A stretch of 34,658 bases of DNA from Acetobacteraceae bacterium (GTDB lineage Bacteria; Pseudomonadota; Alphaproteobacteria; Acetobacterales; Acetobacteraceae), in contig JAFAXA010000036.1 in the NCBI GenBank assembly GCA_019241425.1, positions 1-34,658 of the forward strand, in the 5' to 3' direction. Below, piece by piece: positions 11,535-33,039 of the stretch (the stretch's first letter is position 1; every line of letters begins with the position of its first letter). A program made the position numbers and the translations under genes. The notes under the pieces are model-generated. The model saw nothing but the letters and a program-made list of their open reading frames with translations, made no database searches and was not told the origin of the DNA.

Positions 11535-13442
11535 ATGATCATGCGCAGCATCGCTCGTTTGCCGTTCATGACGCTCAGCATGATGCTCGCTCTGTCGTCG
11601 AGCGGCTCTGACAGGATCAGGATTGGCGGCATCGGCGAGGTGCATGCTCAGGGAACGGACTATGCCGGCCGCGTTACGTTCCTGGACCAGAATTGGTCGC
11701 CCGAGGACCGGCTGCAGTATTACTTCACCTCTCAAGGGTCGGCTGCGACACGCTACGACGTGTTCCTCGCCTTGGAGCAGGCCAACTCGCAGGAGTTGTT
11801 CCGATCCGACGCGAACATGTCCCGATATGGGCTGGTACCGTCGCCGGCCGATCCAACCTACAATCCCGACGGCCTCCCTATCGGCATCGCGAAAGCGGCG
11901 GTTGCGGAGGGGCAGTTCAGCGGCTCCTGGGCGGGGTTGACCTGCGCTGCGTGCCATAACGGCCAGCTCGAATACAAAGGCGCCCGGATCCGGATCAACG
12001 GTGGCACGAACACCGCACTGAACATGCAGGCGTTCCTCGATGGTCTGGACGATGCGTTGGCGGCAACGGTTGCCGATCCGGCGAAGTTTGACCGGATGGC
12101 AGCGCGGCTGGGCCGCACCGACCCGTCTAGCCGGGAAGAGTTACGCCGATGGGTTTCTGAAGACGCAGCGGCGACGCATATCTACAGGCATAAAACGGCC
12201 GTGATGTCGTATCCCGTTGGGCCGGGACGTATCGATGCGCTGGCGCTGATCCACAACCAGGTCATCGGCCGCCAGCTTGGATTTGCAGAGAATCTGCGGC
12301 CGGTCGCTGCACCCGTCAAGTATTCTTTCACTTGGAACATACCGCAATCGGCCTGGGCGCAGTGGAGCGGCGTGCTGCCCGACCCTGTGTTGCGCAACGC
12401 CGGCGAGGCGATGGGCGTTTTCGTGAGAACCGACCTGACATCGCCGACCGTCGCCGAAGGCTTGTTCGAGTCGACCATCGACATGCGCGGCCTCATCAAG
12501 CTCGAGGATCTGCTTCGCAAGCTGGCGCCGCCCGTTTGGCCGGAATCGGTGTTCGGACCGATCGACCGGGCGAAGGCGGCGGTGGGCAAGCAGCTATTCG
12601 CGGAGAACTGCGGTAGCTGCCATTCGAGTTGGCCCCATCGGTGGAGCGAGCCGCGGCTAGAGGGGCGGCGCTTTGTCGAGAACGCGATCGTGAAAGCCGA
12701 CGTGATCGGCACGGACACGACGGCGTTCAACAATCCGCAATTCCAGAGCGCCGCAAGCTTCCAGCACGGCGCGCTGGCTCAGTTCCTGCCTTCGGCGCCG
12801 GACGGCCCGAGCATGGCGTCCAATCCGGAACTGTTTGGCGTGTTGCGCACCGTTTTCTTCACGATGGAGTTGGATAAGCTCGGCCTGAGCCATGAGGAAC
12901 GGCTCTCGGCCCACAATTACAGCCCGTTCTTTCCCGACCCGCAGGATCCGCCTCCGGCGGTACCCGCTTACAAGGCCAACCCGATCGAAGGCATGTGGGC
13001 GTCACCGCCGTATCTGCACAACGGATCGGTCCCGAACCTCTACGAATTGCTGATACCGGCCGCGGAGCGGACCAAAAAATTCTTTGTCGGTCGCGAGTTC
13101 GATCCGGTCCGGGTCGGCGTCGACATGTCGGGGAACACGGGAAGGTTCGAGATGGATACGACGATGACCGGGAACTTCAACGCGGGCCATTCCTTCGAGA
13201 ACGGGGGCGGCCCGGGCACCATCGGCCGGCTGCTCACAGACGACGAGCGTTGGGCCCTCGTTGAGTATATGAAGTCGGTCCCGGAAGTGCCGGCGCAGGT
13301 CACGCCGAACGGCGGTCCGCCGAACCCGGTCCGCGCCTGGCTCGATCCGAATTTCTACCATGTGCGCCACCCCGGGACCTACACTGGCGCGCCACAGCTC
13401 GCCGGGGCAACCGACACGGCACCCGCGGCAAAGCCGCAATGA
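11535..13442 (+). CDS. RoxA/RoxB-like di-haem c-type cytochrome (peroxidase/oxygenase superfamily)
   Basis: The 635-residue product has two covalent haem motifs, CAACH (137-141) and CGSCH (359-363), spaced as in the bacterial di-haem peroxidase superfamily. Its length and the C-terminal PPYLHNGSVPNLYELL (491-506) resemble the RoxA/RoxB branch, whose studied members cleave polyisoprene oxidatively, rather than the short 330-residue CcpA peroxidases. The N-terminus has a hydrophobic stretch (about 8-22) and a possible VHA-QG cleavage site near 36-40, so export to the periplasm or outside is expected and is needed for haem attachment. Start ATG 11535 or 11541. A Tat-type P450 gene follows 104 bp downstream with a long hairpin between. 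The substrate is unknown. Confidence 0.85.
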   Translation: MIMRSIARLPFMTLSMMLALSSSGSDRIRIGGIGEVHAQGTDYAGRVTFLDQNWSPEDRLQYYFTSQGSAATRYDVFLALEQANSQELFRSDANMSRYGLVPSPADPTYNPDGLPIGIAKAAVAEGQFSGSWAGLTCAACHNGQLEYKGARIRINGGTNTALNMQAFLDGLDDALAATVADPAKFDRMAARLGRTDPSSREELRRWVSEDAAATHIYRHKTAVMSYPVGPGRIDALALIHNQVIGRQLGFAENLRPVAAPVKYSFTWNIPQSAWAQWSGVLPDPVLRNAGEAMGVFVRTDLTSPTVAEGLFESTIDMRGLIKLEDLLRKLAPPVWPESVFGPIDRAKAAVGKQLFAENCGSCHSSWPHRWSEPRLEGRRFVENAIVKADVIGTDTTAFNNPQFQSAASFQHGALAQFLPSAPDGPSMASNPELFGVLRTVFFTMELDKLGLSHEERLSAHNYSPFFPDPQDPPPAVPAYKANPIEGMWASPPYLHNGSVPNLYELLIPAAERTKKFFVGREFDPVRVGVDMSGNTGRFEMDTTMTGNFNAGHSFENGGGPGTIGRLLTDDERWALVEYMKSVPEVPAQVTPNGGPPNPVRAWLDPNFYHVRHPGTYTGAPQLAGATDTAPAAKPQ

Positions 13443-13546: not shown

Positions 13547-15117
13547 GTGGAACGACGTCAGATGCTTGCGGCTGCGACCGCGGCTGCGGCTTCAACCGCC
13601 TTCGGCGGACCGCGCGCCCAAGCCGCCGAGGCCGCACCCGGTGACGTAGCGGCCGCGCTTGCGCGGTTCCGCCAATCGATCCCGAGCAATTTCGACCGCG
13701 ACTATGTCGAGAACGCGCTCATCCCCTTCTTCCTCACCAGCGTTTATGTCGGTGAGCCACCGTTATTTCCGATGATCAACCCGATCCTGTCGAAGGAAAA
13801 CGCGTTTCCCGCGGAGTTTCTCGGCCTGATCTACAAGGGGTGGACACCCTCGCGCGAGGAGGGCGTGACCGTCTTTCTGCAAGGCCTGGAGAACCGTGGC
13901 GAGAACAATCTTCGCAAAAGCGGATCTACATGTCCGCGGTCACCCCGGATCTCTACGGCTCGATGTATCGCAGCAAGGTGGTTGCGTTCCTCGACGGGCT
14001 GCTGGACCAGAAGCATGCCGGCAAACCGTTCATGCGGCACTACCTCGACTACTATTTCGACATCTACTGGGATTTGCATGTCGGCGTGAAGGGGAAGGAC
14101 ATCCCGGCCGAAGTTCGAGAGGTCGGCGAGAGCTTCAACACGGTGCTTGCGTATCTGAACCCGATGCAGCCGATCGTGCACGACAACTACATGAAGGTGC
14201 GCGGCAATCTCGACATGCTGCGCGGCTGGATCGATGCGCGTGTCAACGACGTGGCAACCGGACGCGTCGCCCACCCCGAGCGGACGTTTGTTCATTACTG
14301 GCTGAAAAATGCCGGCAACGGCGAGCATTTCGGCAAGCAGGATGTCGTGTTCGAATGCTTCCACAACTTCGTGGCGCTCAGCCAGTGGGGCGCGACGGTG
14401 CATGGCATCATGGGCCGGCTCGATGAGGCGAACGGCGACGCGGACATGCGCGCGTGGTTCGCCAAGACCATGAAGGGCGATTACGACGACGCCAAGGGAA
14501 CACCATACACGCCGCTCGAACTCTATGTGATGGAGATGCTTCGAAGCATGTCTTCCAATCCTGGCAGCATATCCACGCTGGCGGACACGAGGGAATCGAT
14601 CTACGGCCCGTCGCCGTTCCAGTCGCTGGGGCTGCCTTATGAAAGGCATGGCTATGTGACGACGCCGCAGCCGATCACGAGCAAGAGCCCTCTTCAGTGG
14701 AAAGATCCGCTCGCATTCGACCCCGAGCGGTATCGAACCGTTCCGACCAGCGCCGAAATCGACGACGCGAAATGCCGAGAATTGGGTCTGGCCAAGTGCC
14801 CGTTCGACCATACGTCGTTCGACGTGGCGGATGGTCGTCACGCAAGCCTGCAAAACAGCGGGTTCGGCACCGTCTTCGCCGTGGTCGACGGCAAGCCGAT
14901 GCCGGTCTGCGATCACGCGGGCTTCGCGCCCTTCGGCTTTGGATATCGGCGCTGTCCGGGCGAGCAACTGACGGTTCAAGTCTTCGCGGAGTTTCTCCGG
15001 AAGGTTTGGACCGACAAGATCGTATTTTCCAGGCTGGGTTTGGCGAGCCCCGGGCGCGTTCCAGTCGGCCCGAATGCCGTTATCGACGACGACATCACGT
15101 TCAACCGCCGGGGCTGA
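13547..15117 (+). pseudogene. Tat-signal cytochrome P450-like protein, interrupted by a -1 frameshift near 13916-13919
   Basis: Joined across one frameshift, this reads as about 523 residues. The P450 fingerprint is clear: EMLR (330-333, the ExxR motif), FDPERY (391-396, the meander), and FGFGYRRCPG (463-472), which fits FxxGxRxCxG with haem-thiolate Cys470. The GTG start at 13547 follows GGGAGAG and gives MERRQML plus an Ala-rich stretch ending AQAAEA, a twin-arginine-type signal. The I helix lacks the usual AGxxT acid-alcohol pair and reads ECFHNFVALSQWGATV, as in P450s that do not use the normal oxygen-activation route. The frame breaks at the tract GCAAAAGC. One extra A gives the smooth reading LRKKRIYMSAVTP, so a base has been lost in nature or in sequencing. 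The second frame stays open for about 400 codons, arguing for a recent loss or an error. Confidence 0.82.
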
Positions 15118-24336: not shown

Positions 24337-25785
24337 TCACGAGGGGCCGGGCGCGACGAAGGTGAAGCTCTGAGGGCCGCCTGAATACTCGTTCAGGGTT
24401 GCGCCTCCCACGGCGGTCCCGTCGATGGTCGCCCCGGTGACATAGAGGTTGCGGTCGGTTTGCGCGGTGCCGCCGTAAGCATCGTTCAGAAAATTGACGG
24501 TGACGGTGTGGCTGCCGGCCGCGAAGCTTCCGCGCACATTGAACAACTGCGACTGGCCGCCCGCGTGTGAGGCGGTGGCGGTCTGCACGCCGCCGATCTG
24601 CGTTCCGTCGACCGCCACCGTGAACTGCGCATCGCCCTGCCACCCATCCTCGGACACTTGCAAACCCAGCGTGTCGGGTCCGCTGCCGATCGTCACCGGA
24701 GCGGGACCGCCGGATCCGACGAAGCTGAAGCTTTGCGGGCCGCCGGAATATTCGTTGAGGTTCGCGCCGGGAACCGCGGTCCCGTCGATGGTGGCGCCCG
24801 TCACGTACAGGTTGCGGTCGGTTTGCGGCGTGCCGCCATAGGCGTCGTTCAGAAAGTTGACGGAAACGGTGTGGCTGCCGCTGCCGAAAGTTCCAAGCAC
24901 GTCGAATGTCTGGGACTGGCCGGCCGCATGGGATGCGGTGGCGGTCTGCACGCCGCCGATCTGCGTTCCGTCGACCGAGACGGTGAATTGCGCATCGCCC
25001 TGCCAGGCATCTTCCGACACTTGCAACGCCAGCGTGTCGGGTCCGCTGCCGATCGTCACCGGAGCCGAACCGCCCGACGCCGTGAAGCTAAAGCTTTGCG
25101 GGCCGCCCGAATACTCGGTGAGGTTCGCGCCCGGTATTGTGGTCCCGTCGATGGCGGCGCCGGTGACGTAGAGGTTGCGATCGGTTTGCGGCGTGCCGCC
25201 ATACGCGTTGTTGACGAAATCGACGGTGACGGTGTGGGTGCCGGCGGCGAAGCTCCCGAGCACGTTGAATGTCTGAGATTGGCCGGCCGCGTGCGACGCG
25301 GTGGCGGTCTGCACGCCGCCGATTTGCGTCCCGTCCACCGCGACCGTGAACTGGGCATCGCCCTGCCAGGCATCCTCCGACACTTGCAGCGCCAGCGTGT
25401 CGGGTCCGCTGCCGATGGTTACCGGCGCCGAACCGCCGGAGGCAGTGAAGGTGAAGCTTTGCGGGCCGCCCGAATACTCGGTGAGGGTCGCGCCCGGAAC
25501 CGTGGTTCCGTCGATGGTGGCGCCCGTCACATAAAGGTTTCGGTCGGTCTGCGGCGTGCCGCCATAGGCGTTGTTGACGAAATCGACCGTGACGGTGTGC
25601 GTGCCGGCGGCAAAATTTCCGAGCACGTTGAAGGTCTGGGACTGCCCGGCCGCATGGGAGGCGGTGGCGGTCTGCACGCCGCCGATCTGCGTCCCGTCGA
25701 CCGCGACCGTGAACTGGGCATCTCCTTGCCAAGCATCTTCCGACACTTGCAGCGCCAGCGTGTCGGGTCCGCTGCCGATCGTCAC
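24337..25785 (-). repeat. Four tandem 363-bp repeats encoding the CBM60-like domains
   Basis: The shared anchor CCGCTGCCGAT recurs at 24680, 25043, 25406 and 25769, exactly 363 bp (121 codons) apart. Units: 25785-25423, 25422-25060, 25059-24697 and 24696-24337 (the last ends in the stop). The copies are very close at DNA level, so they arose by recent duplication or are homogenised, and the tract could change copy number. Confidence 0.95.
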
Positions 25786-27888
25786 CGGCTGTGGCTGTGA
25801 CGAACCGCCTGACACCGTCTGGGGCACATTGGCGGCGAGATTGTAGCTGTTCCCCTCGATGATTGCGGTCACGTTGCCATCCGCCTCGACACTCGTGATG
25901 ACGCCGCCGCTGATCTGCAGAACGAAATTGACGGGACTGCTGAAGGTGACGTCGGGCGTGCCGCTTCCGGAGAGAGCGATCGAACTGCCGTAGCCGCCTG
26001 CGGAGGTTCGTCCGGCGTAGAGCGTGCCGTTGACCCATCCGAGCGCGGAGCTGAAGCCGTTGGACGTCAACTGGAAACCGGAAAGAACGCTGGATGCCTG
26101 CGGGTCGCCGCTGGCGGACGGATAGACGAAGGTGTCGTTCTCGCTACCGCTACTCGTCGCGCGCACCGGCGTGAGATCGCCGTAGGTCGACTGGACGGGC
26201 GTTTCGGCCGTGAGCGTTGAACCGGCATTGAGGGCGAGGAAGTTCTCGGCGTCGGTCGCGCCGGGATAGGACGTGGACGCGATGCGGTTTCCGATCGCTT
26301 GCGTGAGCGTTGTCGCGCCGTCGTAACGCAGCAACGGCAGTGTCATTCCGAAGGCGTCGGAGCTGTTGCTCTCCGTCGTCTGCGACAGCACGCCGTCCGG
26401 CGTGACGGTCAGCTTCTCGGTAAACACCGGCCCCGAACCGCTGGTCGGCGACCACACCACGGTCAGCTTCGTCAGCACCGGCGTTGCCAGTTGGGTCGTC
26501 ACCGTGCCGGTGTAGTTGCCCGGCTGCTCGGAGAGCCGGGTCCAGTTGCCGTTGACGAGCCAGGTTGGGGCGAAACTGACACCCTGGCCCGTACTGTCGT
26601 CGTAGATGCCGTCGGATGGCCCGAGGCGTGTGTCCCATCCTGTCCTGCCGATGCGGTCGATGCCGAGCGCGTTCCAGGTCTGTCCATAGGTCGCGTAGGC
26701 GCGCCCCGTTGTCTCGATCTCCAGGGCAGTGCCGCCGGCATTGGCGAAGGTCGCGTCGAAGAAGCCCGGCGTCGTGTAGACGTAGCCGCCGATCTCGGTC
26801 GTGGTCGGCGCTTCCGCAACGTTGCTGGCCTGCAGTGCCTCATAGCTGTCGGCCGTGCTCGCCATGACGTTGGCGTTGTATCCTGCCACATGGCTCGCCG
26901 TCTGATAGCCGACGCGCTCACTCGCCGGGTATTGGTTCTTGGTGACCGAGAAGCTGCCGTCGCTGAGCTGCCATCGCGACATTTGTTGGAACGTGAGATC
27001 GGCGGCGCGTTGATACCGCGCGGCAAGATCGGGGTTCGAGCCGGCGTCCAGCTTGGCGAGCGTTTGATCGATCGCCTGATACCCAGCATCCACCCAGACA
27101 TGGTCGTCGGTGCGGCCACCCGCCGGTACCTGGCCGGACGGGTCGAGCATCAGCAGGCTGTTCTGGCTACCCTGCGTGACCAAGGCTGCCATCGTGCCGG
27201 CACTCGCGCCGTCGTAGCCGTTCGCAATGAGATCGGCCAGGTTCCCGCGACCGACCGCCTCGACTGACAACGAGCCGGGCGCATCCGTCGAGGGATCCTC
27301 ATACAGGCCCTCGGTCCCAGCGTTGATGTTGTATTGCTGGTAGGTGTTCCAAAGCTGCTCGATTTCCGAAACGGCCGTCCCATGGCTGACGAGGCCGGCC
27401 TGGTATTGCAGCCAGGCGCCGTCCATCGCGTAGGTCGACCAATTATCGTAGGCTTCGGATGAGGTGTAGTGAAAGCCGGTCAGGTTTCCGGCCCATTGCG
27501 TCAACTGGGATTGGGAAACGAGGCCGCTGTTGCGAAAGATCATGTAGGCCTTGATGAGAGCGGGTAGCTCAAATTCCGGCCCGTTCTGCGAATCCGTCGT
27601 CGATGATGCGTAATCGGCGACCGAATAGTTCATCGCCCGAATTGCTTGACTGAGATAGGTCGTGTCCCCGGTCGACGCCAAGAGCGCCCCGGAATAAGCG
27701 AAGGCTGCAGACGCTCTCGTCGAAATGCTCCCGTCCACCGGGTCCGGGAAAGCGCCACTCGAGGTTTCGAACGACGAAAAGAACCGCAGCTCGCCTCTGA
27801 TACGATTCAGGAGGTCCGCGGCGGTGACGCCTGACGGCGACCAGGGACGCGCGGTGAGATGAAAATCGGTATTCCCTACGGCCGGCAT
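24337..27888 (-). CDS. Large carbohydrate-binding protein with four C-terminal CBM60-like repeats
   Basis: A 1183-residue protein with a strong ribosome-binding site (GGAGAAGC) before its ATG. Residues 1-~400 look helical, with repeated aromatic/Gly motifs (SFETSSGAFPDP, SAAFAYSGALLAS, YEDPSTDAPGSLSVEAVGRGNL, DHVWVDAGYQ) reminiscent of an alpha/alpha toroid enzyme or lyase fold. Residues about 400-680 are beta-rich. From residue 702 four repeats of 121 residues follow, each with GSGPDTLxLQVSED, WQGDAQFTVxVDGTQIGGVQT, TVxxxFxNxAYGG and QTDRNLYVTGA, the pattern of CBM60-like Ca-dependent carbohydrate-binding domains. No Sec signal peptide is visible, although the content is clearly extracellular in type, so type I or another signal-less export, or C-terminal targeting, must be considered. 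No RTX nonapeptides are seen. A polysaccharide-acting enzyme or adhesin is likely; catalytic residues are not identified. Confidence 0.72.
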   Translation of the reverse strand: MPAVGNTDFHLTARPWSPSGVTAADLLNRIRGELRFFSSFETSSGAFPDPVDGSISTRASAAFAYSGALLASTGDTTYLSQAIRAMNYSVADYASSTTDSQNGPEFELPALIKAYMIFRNSGLVSQSQLTQWAGNLTGFHYTSSEAYDNWSTYAMDGAWLQYQAGLVSHGTAVSEIEQLWNTYQQYNINAGTEGLYEDPSTDAPGSLSVEAVGRGNLADLIANGYDGASAGTMAALVTQGSQNSLLMLDPSGQVPAGGRTDDHVWVDAGYQAIDQTLAKLDAGSNPDLAARYQRAADLTFQQMSRWQLSDGSFSVTKNQYPASERVGYQTASHVAGYNANVMASTADSYEALQASNVAEAPTTTEIGGYVYTTPGFFDATFANAGGTALEIETTGRAYATYGQTWNALGIDRIGRTGWDTRLGPSDGIYDDSTGQGVSFAPTWLVNGNWTRLSEQPGNYTGTVTTQLATPVLTKLTVVWSPTSGSGPVFTEKLTVTPDGVLSQTTESNSSDAFGMTLPLLRYDGATTLTQAIGNRIASTSYPGATDAENFLALNAGSTLTAETPVQSTYGDLTPVRATSSGSENDTFVYPSASGDPQASSVLSGFQLTSNGFSSALGWVNGTLYAGRTSAGGYGSSIALSGSGTPDVTFSSPVNFVLQISGGVITSVEADGNVTAIIEGNSYNLAANVPQTVSGGSSQPQPVTIGSGPDTLALQVSEDAWQGDAQFTVAVDGTQIGGVQTATASHAAGQSQTFNVLGNFAAGTHTVTVDFVNNAYGGTPQTDRNLYVTGATIDGTTVPGATLTEYSGGPQSFTFTASGGSAPVTIGSGPDTLALQVSEDAWQGDAQFTVAVDGTQIGGVQTATASHAAGQSQTFNVLGSFAAGTHTVTVDFVNNAYGGTPQTDRNLYVTGAAIDGTTIPGANLTEYSGGPQSFSFTASGGSAPVTIGSGPDTLALQVSEDAWQGDAQFTVSVDGTQIGGVQTATASHAAGQSQTFDVLGTFGSGSHTVSVNFLNDAYGGTPQTDRNLYVTGATIDGTAVPGANLNEYSGGPQSFSFVGSGGPAPVTIGSGPDTLGLQVSEDGWQGDAQFTVAVDGTQIGGVQTATASHAGGQSQLFNVRGSFAAGSHTVTVNFLNDAYGGTAQTDRNLYVTGATIDGTAVGGATLNEYSGGPQSFTFVAPGPS

Positions 27889-28512: not shown

Positions 28513-29631
28513 ATGGTCGCATCCAGGAAGCCGTCACGTCGTAACGCCCGTGAACTGACCATGCATGATGCCGGCCCTTTTATGCGTAGGCCCGAGCTGT
28601 CTGTCGTCGTGCCGTGCCACAACGAAGCGGAGGGCATATACGAATTCCATCGCCGCCTCACTGAGGTGATGGAGGGGATAGCGCTCCCTTGGGAGGTCAT
28701 CTACGTCAACGACGGCAGCACCGATCGTACTCTGGACCGCTTATCGGAGCTTCGTGACCGCCACGATCTCGTCGGGTACCTGAATCTATCCCGCAATTTC
28801 GGCAAAGAGATTGCCCTGACAGCCGGCCTCGATCACGTGCATGGGAACGCCGTCGTCGTGATCGATGCCGATCTTCAGGACCCTCCGGAGATAATTCCGA
28901 AATTGGTGGCCGGATGGAGGGAGGGCTTTGACGTCGTTTACGCGCAGCGCTCGACGCGGCTCGGTGAGACGTGGTTGAAGAGGGCGACTGCGAACGCCTT
29001 CTACCAGTTGATGCAACGCATCGGCGGTGAAGTCTCCCTTCCGGCAAACACCGGAGACTTTCGGCTCCTGAGTCGCCGCGCGGTTGACGCGCTCCTGGAT
29101 CTTCGCGAGAAGCACCGGTTCATGAAGGGCCTGTTTGCTTGGATCGGTTATCCAAGCAAGGCCGTTCCCTATGATCGAGCACCGCGGCATGCAGGCTCGA
29201 CGAGTTGGAACTACTGGCAGCTATGGAATCTTGCGGTCGAAGGCGTGACAGGTTTCACCGTCGCCCCATTGAAGGTTGCCACGTATCTCGGTTTGCTGGT
29301 GGCGACCTCGGCTATTGTCTACGCGGCGGTGGTCATCTTCCGCACCGTGATGTTTGGTAGCAGCGTGCCGGGTTATCCGAGTCTGATGGTGGTGATTCTG
29401 TTCCTGGGTGGAACACAGCTGATCACCTTGGGCGTGTTGGGCGAATATCTCGGTCGGGTTTTCAACGAAGCGAAGCAGAGGCCGTTGTATTTGGTCGAGG
29501 AGTTCGTGGCCCCGACACCATTGGACGCTGAAAGCTCGTACGAGCTTCCGCCGCGTGTCAGAGCCGAGGCTGGTGCGTCGGGCCGCGCACGGACGGGATC
29601 GGACAGCAGCATCCCGCAAACGACTCCCTAG
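28513..29631 (+). CDS. GtrB/ArnC-type polyprenyl-phosphate glycosyltransferase (GT2)
   Basis: The 372-residue protein makes a polyprenyl-phosphate-linked sugar at the cytoplasmic face of the inner membrane. The GT2 catalytic core shows ELSVVVPCHNEAEGI, VNDGSTDRT, NLSRNFGKEIALTAGLDH, the metal motif DADLQDPPE, and NTGDFRLLSRRAVDAL. The helix GSTSWNYWQLWNLAVEGVTGFTVAPLK leads into two C-terminal membrane helices (GLLVATSAIVYAAVVIF and LMVVILFLGGTQLITLGVLGEYLGRVF), the GtrB/DPMS layout. The N-terminal 25 residues are poorly conserved; starts at 28513, 28561 and 28582 are all possible and none has a strong ribosome-binding site. The two membrane paralogs directly downstream are probably co-transcribed and may use the sugar it makes. 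Confidence 0.9.
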   Translation: MVASRKPSRRNARELTMHDAGPFMRRPELSVVVPCHNEAEGIYEFHRRLTEVMEGIALPWEVIYVNDGSTDRTLDRLSELRDRHDLVGYLNLSRNFGKEIALTAGLDHVHGNAVVVIDADLQDPPEIIPKLVAGWREGFDVVYAQRSTRLGETWLKRATANAFYQLMQRIGGEVSLPANTGDFRLLSRRAVDALLDLREKHRFMKGLFAWIGYPSKAVPYDRAPRHAGSTSWNYWQLWNLAVEGVTGFTVAPLKVATYLGLLVATSAIVYAAVVIFRTVMFGSSVPGYPSLMVVILFLGGTQLITLGVLGEYLGRVFNEAKQRPLYLVEEFVAPTPLDAESSYELPPRVRAEAGASGRARTGSDSSIPQTTP

Positions 29632-29645
29632 AGGTCTTCTGCTTC

Positions 29646-31358
29646 GTGAGGACAGCGATCGGAAAACGCGTCGGTGTTTTCTGGACCGGCCGGTCTGACC
29701 TGCTCACGGGCTGGGCGATTGCCGGCATCACCGCGCTTCTCGGCATTCTCGTCGCCGTTGCGCAATACGGTGCTGGTGTTCGCGTCAACGGACCCGGCGC
29801 GGCTCATGACGGCGCGTTCGCGGTCTGGAGCTTCATCCAGTTTCGGGGCGACCTCGCCTTCGGGTACATCCCGCGTTGGTCGGTTGCAGGGTTCAATGGG
29901 TTGGGCTCTCCCCTGTTTTTCTTCTATCCTCCGGGGGCATTCTATGCCGCGGTCCTGACCGGGCTTTTGGCGCCCACCCTTTCGCCCGCCGACGTGGTTG
30001 CCGCAACCGAGATTCTCTTTCGCATTCTTGCCGTTTGCACCTTCTTCGCCTGGCTGCGGCGACGAACGTCGCCGGCGCAGGCATTGTTTGGCGGCGGCTT
30101 CTACGCCCTGATGCCGTGGATCGCGCTCTTCGATCCCCAGGTGCGGCTTGCCTTTGCGGAAACGGCCGGCATTGCCGTCTTGCCGCTGGCATTCCTGGCG
30201 GCGGATCTGGGCAAGGGGCGGCCGCTATGGCTCTTCTTCGGGACCGCACTGACAACGGGTCTGCTGACGCTGATGCATGTGCCGACCATGGTGGCCAATA
30301 GCGGTGTGCTTCTGACATATGCCGCGCTTGCCGAAAGGAGCGTCCGCGCGACGATTCGATCGACCCTGGCGGTGATCGCCGGTGTGGGCTTCGGCTTAGC
30401 AATGGCGGGCTACATGCTGGTGCCCGCCCTCGTGCTTCTGCCAAGCATCACGTCCGCAGCGTTCTGGGATGCAGAACATCGACCAGACGGTAACTACTTC
30501 CTGACGCTGGAGAGCCTTCGCTCCCAACTCGGGATACTGTCCGACATCTGCGTGCTCGCCCCCCTGCTTCTCGCGGTTCTCGTGGGCGCCAGAGGTCTGC
30601 GCGCCGGCCGTATTCCGGTCAATCTGGTCGGTTCGCTGAGCGTCGCGTGCTTTTTCCTTCTGCCGCTCTCTTCGCTGTTCTGGAACCATCTCCTTCCGTT
30701 GCGCATGGTGCAGTTTCCGGGACGTTTCATGCCGTCCGTCTCGCTGCTCGCGTCTTCCATCATCGCCCTATCTCTCCCCGGATGTCGCGCGGGAGTGCAG
30801 CGGCTTGTTATCGGTGTCGCCTGGGCGATGGGTGTTTTTGCGGTCGTTTTCGCAATGTATTACGGCGACGGCGCGAGCCCGGGCCGCAAGCGAACCGCTG
30901 ATGCGACAGTCCAGTGGCGTGCCAATGCGCCTGAATATGTGCCGGAAGCAGCCGCCTCGAAAGGATGGTTCGAGCGGATGCCGGACCCAGAAGCATTTCA
31001 GGAGCAACTCGAGAGGATGAGGTCGCCCTGTGTCTCGGGCGTGAGTGCGTTGGACGGCGCGACCGATGGACGGCAAACGTTCGACGTCAGCCATTGCAGC
31101 GGGCCGGTCGTGCTCCCGGTATTCTTCTTTCCGGGCTGGACGGCGCGGTCCGATGACGGCCAACGGCTCACCGTGCGCGCAGACGACAAGAGCGGTCTCG
31201 TGACCGTCGATCTGCCGTCGCAAGCCGAACGAATCACGCTCCGTCGATCGCCGACGCAGATCGAGTTGATTGGTTCATTGACAAGCCTTCTTTCCATTTC
31301 AATTCTGGCGGGCTTCGCTGTCGGAGTTCTCAGGCCGAAGCATGCGCATCCGGCTTGA
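29646..31358 (+). CDS. PTPS-related (GT-C-like) membrane protein, copy 1
   Basis: A 570-residue protein with about 10-12 membrane helices. HDGAFAVWSFIQFRGDLAFGYIPRW and GSPLFFFYPPGAFYA near residues 50-100 are the hallmark loop of the '6-pyruvoyl-tetrahydropterin synthase-related' family, a misleading name for polytopic proteins that look like lipid-linked-sugar transferases. The C-terminal periplasmic region carries APEYVPEAAASKGWF, SPC, and TFDVSHCSG..VLPVFFFPGW with two Cys that could form a disulfide. GTG start at 29646, 14 bp after the GtrB-type gene, with AGAGG upstream. It is a clear paralog of the next gene. The acid in the H-D-G loop is the likely catalytic or donor-binding residue, by analogy only. 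Confidence 0.75.
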   Translation: MRTAIGKRVGVFWTGRSDLLTGWAIAGITALLGILVAVAQYGAGVRVNGPGAAHDGAFAVWSFIQFRGDLAFGYIPRWSVAGFNGLGSPLFFFYPPGAFYAAVLTGLLAPTLSPADVVAATEILFRILAVCTFFAWLRRRTSPAQALFGGGFYALMPWIALFDPQVRLAFAETAGIAVLPLAFLAADLGKGRPLWLFFGTALTTGLLTLMHVPTMVANSGVLLTYAALAERSVRATIRSTLAVIAGVGFGLAMAGYMLVPALVLLPSITSAAFWDAEHRPDGNYFLTLESLRSQLGILSDICVLAPLLLAVLVGARGLRAGRIPVNLVGSLSVACFFLLPLSSLFWNHLLPLRMVQFPGRFMPSVSLLASSIIALSLPGCRAGVQRLVIGVAWAMGVFAVVFAMYYGDGASPGRKRTADATVQWRANAPEYVPEAAASKGWFERMPDPEAFQEQLERMRSPCVSGVSALDGATDGRQTFDVSHCSGPVVLPVFFFPGWTARSDDGQRLTVRADDKSGLVTVDLPSQAERITLRRSPTQIELIGSLTSLLSISILAGFAVGVLRPKHAHPA

Positions 31359-33039
31359 TGCCGCGGCCGGGCCGTTGCGTCGAGCCGGCTGGCCGGGCTT
31401 TCTCCTTTTCTGCTCTTTGGCACTGGCGATCCTGCAAGCGCTCGCCGGCATACCCTTGACCGGTTACCACGCCGCCCATGACGGCAAGTTTGCGCTGTGG
31501 ACGCTTGTGCAGTTCCAGGGTGAGCTGACTGCCGGAACGTTTCCGCCGCGCTGGTCCGTTCATGGCTTTGAGGGATTCGGCTCACCGATCTTCTTTTTCT
31601 ATCCGCCGGCAGCGTTCGCTGCGACCTCCTTGCTCGGAACGGTGTTGCCGAACGCCTCGGCGGCGGCACTCCTCGACCTTGGCCAGTTCGCCTTTCGGAT
31701 CGGCGCAACGGTAACATGCTTCTTCTGGTTGCGGACCTGGACCGACTTGCGATCGGCTCTGCTTGGCGCGGCGCTGTATGGACTGATGCCCTATACGGCG
31801 CTCATCAATCCCCAAATTCGGTTGGCCTATGCGGAGTGCGCCGCCGCGATGGTCATTCCGCTTTTCTTCGCGGCGATCGACGCGGCTTTGGGAGACGTCA
31901 GAAGAACCATCGTGTTTGTAGGGCCGGCGACTGCCTTGCTCGCGATCGTGCATCTCCCTTCAACGGTGCTGGCCGGCGGCTTGGGTGCGATCTATGCGGG
32001 ATTAGGCTATCGTCGCCTCGTGCTTGCTTTGCGCGGGAGCGCGCTCGCAGCCTCGGGCGTGGCGTTCGGTCTGGGCATGGCCGCCTATTTCGTCGTGCCG
32101 GCCGTGACCCTGCTGAATGACATCAGCCCCGCCGCTCTGACCGACATGGTTCGTTCGCCGGAGACGAATTTTCTGCTGATCGCAAATGAGTTTCGCACCG
32201 GGCATGGCGCGCTTCACGGGCTCTTGCTCGATCTCAGTCTCGTCATCCCGTTGGCTGCCTGCCTCGCGACGGCCCCGGCCGCACTCCGTGCGAACCCCCG
32301 GAGCCGGGCCATTGTCGGGACCTGCCTGATCGCCGCCGTGCTGACGCTGCCGGTGTCCGGATTCGTTTGGAGATACCTTCCCCCGCTTCGCATGGTGCAG
32401 TTTCCTTGGCGCGCGCTGCTCGTAGTGTCGCTGCTCGCATCAACATGCGTCGCAGTGGCGCTGCCTGTTCTCAAGACGGTCATCCGTCGCGTGATCTTAT
32501 GCTCCGCTGCGATACTTGCGGTCGGCAATTTCGCAATCGCGCTTCGCTTGAGCGACGGTTTCACATCGGCCGCCAGCAGGACGCAGCAGGTCCTGCAAGA
32601 GGGTGGCGGCGACGCGCCCGAATATCTCCCGGCCGACGCTGCCCGACAGGGATGGTTCGATGTTGCGCACCCCGGACCCGGCAATGTGACGCGCGCTGCC
32701 GCGTTCGTTTCCCCGTGCTTGCGGAAAGGCGGGGAGACCGCCAGCGCTGAAGAACTGACATTCGATGTTCACGACTGCTCCGGCAGACTTGTTCTGCCGC
32801 AGTTTTACTTTCCGGGTTGGGTGGCCGTGACCGGGACAGCAGCCCTGCCTGTCGCTCCCGACCCCCACAGCGGGTTGGCCTCCGCTATCCTGGGGGAAGG
32901 AAGCAGGACACTTCTTTTGCGCAGAAAGATGTTAGGGGCCGAAAAGCTAGGGGCGGCGATCAGCATTGTCTGCATCGTGCTGTGGGCCGCGCTTGCGTTC
33001 CAGATCGTGGGCCAACGCCAACGACAGCACCCCGGTTGA
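31342..33039 (+). CDS. PTPS-related (GT-C-like) membrane protein, copy 2
   Basis: The 565-residue product is a paralog of the preceding gene with the same architecture: HDGKFALWTLVQFQGELTAG..PPRWSV, GSPIFFFYPPAAFAA, about 10-12 helices, LPPLRMVQFPWRALL in the late helices, then the outer domain with APEYLPADAARQGWF, SPC, and TFDVHDCSG..VLPQFYFPGW. Its ATG lies inside the end of copy 1 (17-bp overlap), so the two are coupled and made together. The overlap and similarity suggest an old tandem duplication, possibly of a heterodimer or of two enzymes acting in succession. Function is inferred only from the GtrB-type neighbour. Confidence 0.75.
   Translation: MRIRLDAAAGPLRRAGWPGFLLFCSLALAILQALAGIPLTGYHAAHDGKFALWTLVQFQGELTAGTFPPRWSVHGFEGFGSPIFFFYPPAAFAATSLLGTVLPNASAAALLDLGQFAFRIGATVTCFFWLRTWTDLRSALLGAALYGLMPYTALINPQIRLAYAECAAAMVIPLFFAAIDAALGDVRRTIVFVGPATALLAIVHLPSTVLAGGLGAIYAGLGYRRLVLALRGSALAASGVAFGLGMAAYFVVPAVTLLNDISPAALTDMVRSPETNFLLIANEFRTGHGALHGLLLDLSLVIPLAACLATAPAALRANPRSRAIVGTCLIAAVLTLPVSGFVWRYLPPLRMVQFPWRALLVVSLLASTCVAVALPVLKTVIRRVILCSAAILAVGNFAIALRLSDGFTSAASRTQQVLQEGGGDAPEYLPADAARQGWFDVAHPGPGNVTRAAAFVSPCLRKGGETASAEELTFDVHDCSGRLVLPQFYFPGWVAVTGTAALPVAPDPHSGLASAILGEGSRTLLLRRKMLGAEKLGAAISIVCIVLWAALAFQIVGQRQRQHPG

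Follow-up and report, generated by a model that had tools for sequence, protein, structure and literature searches.

The pgf operon of Streptococcus mutans encodes PgfS, PgfM1, PgfE and PgfM2. Surface proteins are fully glycosylated only if PgfS and both membrane proteins, PgfM1 and PgfM2, are present; loss of PgfM1 abolishes glycosylation, and loss of PgfM2 truncates it, with a partial product remaining (PMC5856776). In Bacillus subtilis, the glycosylation of lipoteichoic acid involves a two-gene unit in which the enzyme CsbB resembles GtrB and the membrane protein YfhO resembles GT-Cs (PMC5836110). Both the GtrA-GtrB-Gtr(type) systems of O-antigen glucosylation and the GT136 pentofuranose systems consist of an UndP-sugar synthase, a flippase and a GT-C protein (PMC11127046). 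The GtrB protein of Synechocystis converts UDP-glucose to UndP-glucose (PMC4728340).

The locus described here belongs to a 34,658-nucleotide contig of an Acetobacteraceae bacterium (the entire stretch that was analysed, hereafter the window) and consists of a gtrB-type gene followed by two genes for paralogous membrane proteins, denoted copy A and copy B (Table 1). This set, a GtrB-type enzyme with two mutually similar polytopic membrane proteins, resembles that of the pgf operon, the closest functional parallel; furthermore, the window GtrB has its best NCBIfam match in PgfS (2.2e-85, albeit below the cut-off of the model). Unlike the pgf operon, the window has no epimerase gene and comes from a Gram-negative context. 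Moreover, copies A and B do not belong to the PgfM1/PgfM2 sequence family: the PgfM2 model picks up 2 of their 80 aligned relatives, at E 0.012 at best, and matches neither copy A nor, at E 0.1, copy B. The CsbB-YfhO pair is likewise a unit of a GtrB-type enzyme and a GT-C protein, and 22 of the 80 relatives match the YfhO family (PF09586, best 1.5e-9), but it differs from the window unit in possessing one GT-C, a Gram-positive polymer acceptor and a much larger outer loop. With the Gtr and GT136 systems, the window shares the combination of an UndP-sugar synthase and a GT-C transferase, whereas it lacks an adjacent flippase and encodes a sister pair of GT-Cs, probably joined by a third one. 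By analogy with these systems, the scheme of donor synthase, flippase and GT-C appears to be the best-supported model for the window unit. The machinery is of a known type, the novelty being the doubled GT-C and the probable third one.

Table 1. Features of the window unit and of the associated third GT-C-like gene
Feature	Position	Strand	Details
gtrB-type polyprenyl-phosphate glycosyltransferase	28513..29631	+	372 aa, ATG; GT2, two C-terminal TM helices
GT-C copy A	29646..31358	+	570 aa, GTG start
GT-C copy B	31342..33039	+	565 aa, ATG start; paralogue of A
Overlap of copies A and B	31342..31358	+	17 bp with ATG 31342 as start codon
Copy A first outer loop, residues 49-96	29790..29933	+	D55, PRW 76-78, FFFYPP 91-96; conserved columns, after TM1 in the model
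Copy B Asp47 (equivalent to A Asp55)	31480..31482	+	From sequence and alignment
Copy A Arg360	30723..30725	+	Invariant in 80/80 rows; corresponds to the arginine that precedes a late TM helix in GT-Cs
Copy B Arg357 (equivalent to A Arg360)	32410..32412	+	Equivalent of the invariant Arg
Copy A C-terminal outer beta domain, ~residues 445-536	30978..31253	+	Cys462, Cys484; strands assigned by DSSP on the model
Third GT-C-like protein, 499 aa	22827..24326	+	No Pfam match; 46-47% identical to the partners in L051 and L069

The gene order and the overlap given in a preliminary description of this DNA are borne out by the open reading frames, provided that copy B starts at ATG 31342; the next in-frame start, TTG 31375, would abolish the overlap. 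All three genes share the plus strand, with 14 bp between gtrB and copy A, and the true start of gtrB may be 28561 or 28582 instead of 28513. The GC content at third codon positions (0.71-0.73 in all three, in a window of 66% GC) is as expected for genuine genes. The plus-strand unit ends at copy B, which is followed by a glyoxalase-type and a glutathione-transferase-type gene, both on the opposite strand. A scan for a sigma-70 promoter upstream of gtrB gave no site. Copies A and B are the sole two members of their family in the 3.58-Mb draft genome.

The assignment of the first gene to the GtrB-type polyprenyl-phosphate glycosyltransferases, also made in the preliminary description, holds over the full length of the enzyme: the protein matches Synechocystis GtrB (sll0501, 5EKP) with 376 bits (E 8.7e-112, residues 28-331), retains the IDADLQD, TGDFRL and DRxPRxxGxTxWN segments in this comparison, and matches PF00535 at 2.6e-30. 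The GT2 domain with a DxD-type motif, the Asp of TGDFRL, the conserved Arg and the C-terminal TM region are all present. Judged by sequence comparison, this protein is a true polyisoprenyl-phosphate glycosyltransferase homologue, and its identity is firm.

The preliminary description had proposed two similar membrane proteins of 565-570 residues that share HDG..F, PRW and FFFYPP motifs as well as SPC and CSG cysteines in an outer domain. Indeed, copies A and B align with 38% identity (534 columns, E 1e-100) and both contain all these motifs, the exact SPC/CSG form of the cysteines being common to these two copies only. The AlphaFold2 models of both copies, built with an 80-row alignment, are of high predicted quality (pLDDT 89.9 and pTM 0.91 for copy A; 89.5 and 0.90 for copy B). 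The leading PDB matches of copy A in Foldseek are AftA, Stt3, AftD, AglB, AftB, ArnT, Emb and PglB, and the GT-C matches of the two models also include Pmt4. In VIA-align, copy A superimposes on Stt3 (8agc) with Z 19.1 (rmsd 4.2, 358 aligned) and on ArnT (5f15) with Z 17.5 (rmsd 4.3, 349 aligned), and copy B on Stt3 (8age) with Z 25.0 (rmsd 4.2, 360 aligned) and on ArnT with Z 21.9 (rmsd 4.3, 359 aligned); among the matches listed, every one with a Z of at least 8 is a GT-C-type protein, for A and B alike. These models support a polytopic GT-C transmembrane fold for both copies. The preliminary description had named models without a GT-C fold as grounds for giving up its proposal, and neither model is of that kind.

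Assignment by sequence to a family is less direct. No Pfam or NCBIfam model matches either copy above its cut-off: PF10131 (PTPS_related) reaches 6.2 bits in copy A (E 4; gathering cut-off 26.4) and does not match copy B at E 0.1, PF09586 matches neither copy at E 0.1 (copy A not even at E 10), and no NCBIfam model matches either at E 0.1. A sequence search for relatives with solved structures gave weak matches for the copies (E 0.58-0.84), which is the level of chance. However, among the relatives that were gathered by profile search and make up the 80 rows of the alignment, 49 match PF10131 (best 3.8e-14). Given that the relatives match this model although A and B miss its cut-off, the two copies are, by indirect homology, outlying members of the PTPS_related homology group, below the Pfam threshold. 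In Pfam terms, the PTPS-related label of the preliminary description is therefore weaker than stated for copies A and B, neither of which passes the cut-off itself. Pfam assigns this homology group to the GT-C clan (PMC7801869).

After TM1, the first outer loop of both copies contains a His-Asp pair, which supplies an acidic residue (D55 in A, D47 in B) and is followed by PRW and FFFYPP. Both copies also have an arginine before a late TM helix (R360 and R357), a motif of GT-C families (PMC7801869). The first outer loop of copy A is likely to be the catalytic loop. Of the 43 positions that are conserved in at least 85% of the relatives, copy A retains 37 and copy B 41, so neither looks decayed; copy A has a Gly just before the invariant Arg, where 69 of the 80 rows show Trp. 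The identity between A and B rises to 59% in the first loop and 62% before the late TM helix, but this was dropped as proof of a shared donor because these segments are the most conserved ones family-wide.

The loop Asp, suggested earlier as a target for mutation, is a suitable one in A and B but not throughout the family: the respective column (window positions 29808-29810 for Asp55) contains Asp in 44 of the 80 rows and Ser in 34. All the Ser rows carry a Glu six residues past the invariant Arg. Compensation of Ser for Asp by this Glu (position 366; 34 of 34 Ser rows) was considered and rejected: three Asp rows from the same clade carry the Glu too, so it is a mark of the clade rather than a proven compensation. 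GT-C-like proteins without the loop acid merit attention.

Gene neighborhoods were compared in 82 loci longer than 12 kb, with several kb of flank searched. A GtrB relative was found in 18 of these (16 distinct loci, since two from Acetobacteraceae were counted twice, as L051/L121 and L069/L122), and in 17 of the 18 no more than 1.8 kb separates it from the membrane gene, which it overlaps in some cases (e.g., in L130, with both genes on the same strand). The linkage is seen in Sphingobium, Novosphingobium and Qipengyuania (Sphingomonadales), in Caulobacteraceae and Acetobacteraceae, and in an unclassified proteobacterium. In the other 64 long loci, GtrB is absent nearby, so the PTPS-type family does not need a local GtrB. 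The PTPS-type protein is also encoded in 17 Aeromonas loci (including L013, L019, L030 and L031), where its gene mostly occupies a conserved place right after another GT-C-like gene; the retrieved stretches of these loci contain no identified gtrB. In Novosphingobium (L081, 3503-8911), genes for GtrA, a methyltransferase, GtrB and a PMT_2-type GT-C adjoin the PTPS-type gene, and this group is a complete three-component set including the flippase. A search of a plasmid collection gave a single weak match, in Roseomonas haemaphysalidis.

In Roseomonadaceae, gtrB is followed, divergently, by a second GT-C-like gene and the A/B relative, and a gene of Wzx/MATE type lies close to gtrB. The 499-aa protein of the window is orthologue-like to the Roseomonadaceae partner located between gtrB and the A/B relative. 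It was identified in 7 of the 299 family genomes; in four of the seven (window included) it shares the neighborhood with A/B relatives, and in a fifth it adjoins a gtrB. Given this occurrence beside A/B relatives and gtrB, the protein probably belongs to the same system as gtrB, A and B, even though a 1183-aa gene on the opposite strand separates it from gtrB. Thus, the three-gene unit of the preliminary description is real, but its boundary was drawn too narrowly if this third GT-C is included, as is probable.

The intervening 1183-aa protein (24337-27888, minus strand, divergent from gtrB) contains four CBM60 repeats (3e-59); no Pfam family matches the N-terminal portion, which might represent a glycosidase-like domain. 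It was rejected as a conserved member of the cassette because no relative of it occurs in any retrieved locus. Elsewhere in the window, the reading frame at 13840-15117 (plus strand) ends in FGFGYRRCPGE, which resembles the haem loop of cytochromes P450, and PF21419 (RoxA-like cytochrome c domain) matches the 635-aa protein at 11535-13442 (plus strand) with 9e-15.

The window combines a GtrB-type enzyme with GT-Cs, but no dedicated flippase accompanies these genes: no GtrA, SMR or MATE type gene adjoining the cassette was identified in the window. Flippase genes do occur in gene groups of the relatives (GtrA in L081; Wzx/MATE-type in L027, L069 and L121). The only GtrA domain of the window's own genome is fused to another GT2 (contig C56). 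Five Polysacc_synt_3 matches are encoded outside the window, but these proteins are 24-29% identical to the MATE-type protein of the relatives and none is an evident orthologue of it. The GT2-GtrA fusion on C56 (L086) lies beside an ArnT/PMT-like membrane protein, i.e., in what looks like a separate lipid-linked sugar pathway. On another contig of this genome (C87, L088), a second GtrB-like gene is accompanied by a methyltransferase and by a small membrane protein of DMT/EmrE-like type that might act as a lipid-sugar flippase.

The GT-C folds, the homology of GtrB and the recurrent linkage to GtrB all support the glycosylation cassette with a pair of GT-Cs that the preliminary description had envisaged. 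We consider it likely that gtrB, A and B constitute a lipid-linked, extracytoplasmic glycosylation cassette in which the two paralogues act on a periplasmic acceptor. Under this model, GtrB would use a nucleotide sugar to load a single sugar onto undecaprenyl phosphate on the inner side of the membrane, the lipid-sugar would be turned outward by a flippase whose gene lies elsewhere, and A and B, both of which carry the loop Asp and the Arg described above, would pass the sugar to the acceptor. The two copies are likely to have distinct acceptors or to serve distinct steps, with the first sugar added by one and a further sugar by the other, as is proposed for PgfM1 and PgfM2 in S. mutans. The third GT-C probably acts in this pathway, too. 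More tentatively, and with considerable doubt, one GtrB sugar could feed all three GT-Cs, which would form an assembly line or complex that builds a short external glycan.

Instead of sequential enzymes, A and B could be the subunits of an obligate heterodimeric transferase, as in Pmt1-Pmt2 or EmbA-EmbB. The adjoining, overlapping genes suggest coupled translation, the conserved residues are kept in both copies, and chains of Pmt1-Pmt2 and Emb, known GT-C dimers, are among the fold matches. However, likeness of the GT-C fold carries no information on pairing, and most relatives are present as a single copy, so we regard the heterodimer as rather unlikely.

Phylogenetic analysis places A and B as sister sequences with full support, their nearest kin being an Acetobacteraceae group. 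Tandem pairs of the same family are found in another Acetobacteraceae genome (L120, 7533-11812) and, independently arisen, in Sphingobium phenoxybenzoativorans (L042, 6347-9437). The sister relationship and the separate pair in Sphingobium would be compatible with plain redundancy, i.e., duplicated enzymes of the same specificity. Nevertheless, 62% of the positions differ between A and B and the path between them amounts to 1.68 changes per column; such divergence, combined with the retention of the motifs, fits separate roles better, and redundancy seems to us distinctly unlikely.

Finally, A and B might be flippase or ligase-like proteins that handle the sugar-lipid and share the GT-C fold without being transferases, given that a shared fold is no proof of function, that no stand-alone flippase lies beside the genes, that the PTPS_related family was described in 2021 as of unknown function (PMC7801869) and that the literature searched (most subscription journals being outside its scope) yielded no member of proven activity, but this is highly improbable because both copies possess two residues that typify GT-C catalysis, the Asp of the first loop and the Arg before the late TM helix, and the related YfhO is genetically required for the addition of sugar to lipoteichoic acid (PMC5836110).

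The proposal of a lipid-linked glycosylation cassette leaves the known mechanism itself unchanged. Its significance lies with the PTPS_related-type proteins, which are widespread and misleadingly named: the compact gtrB-GT-C-GT-C unit, together with its recurrent partner, makes their function directly testable. By analogy, the two-GT-C arrangement known from the streptococcal pgf operon would have its Gram-negative counterpart in the window unit. The assembly of three GT-Cs, if true, would provide a defined activity for the PTPS_related group in Gram-negative bacteria.
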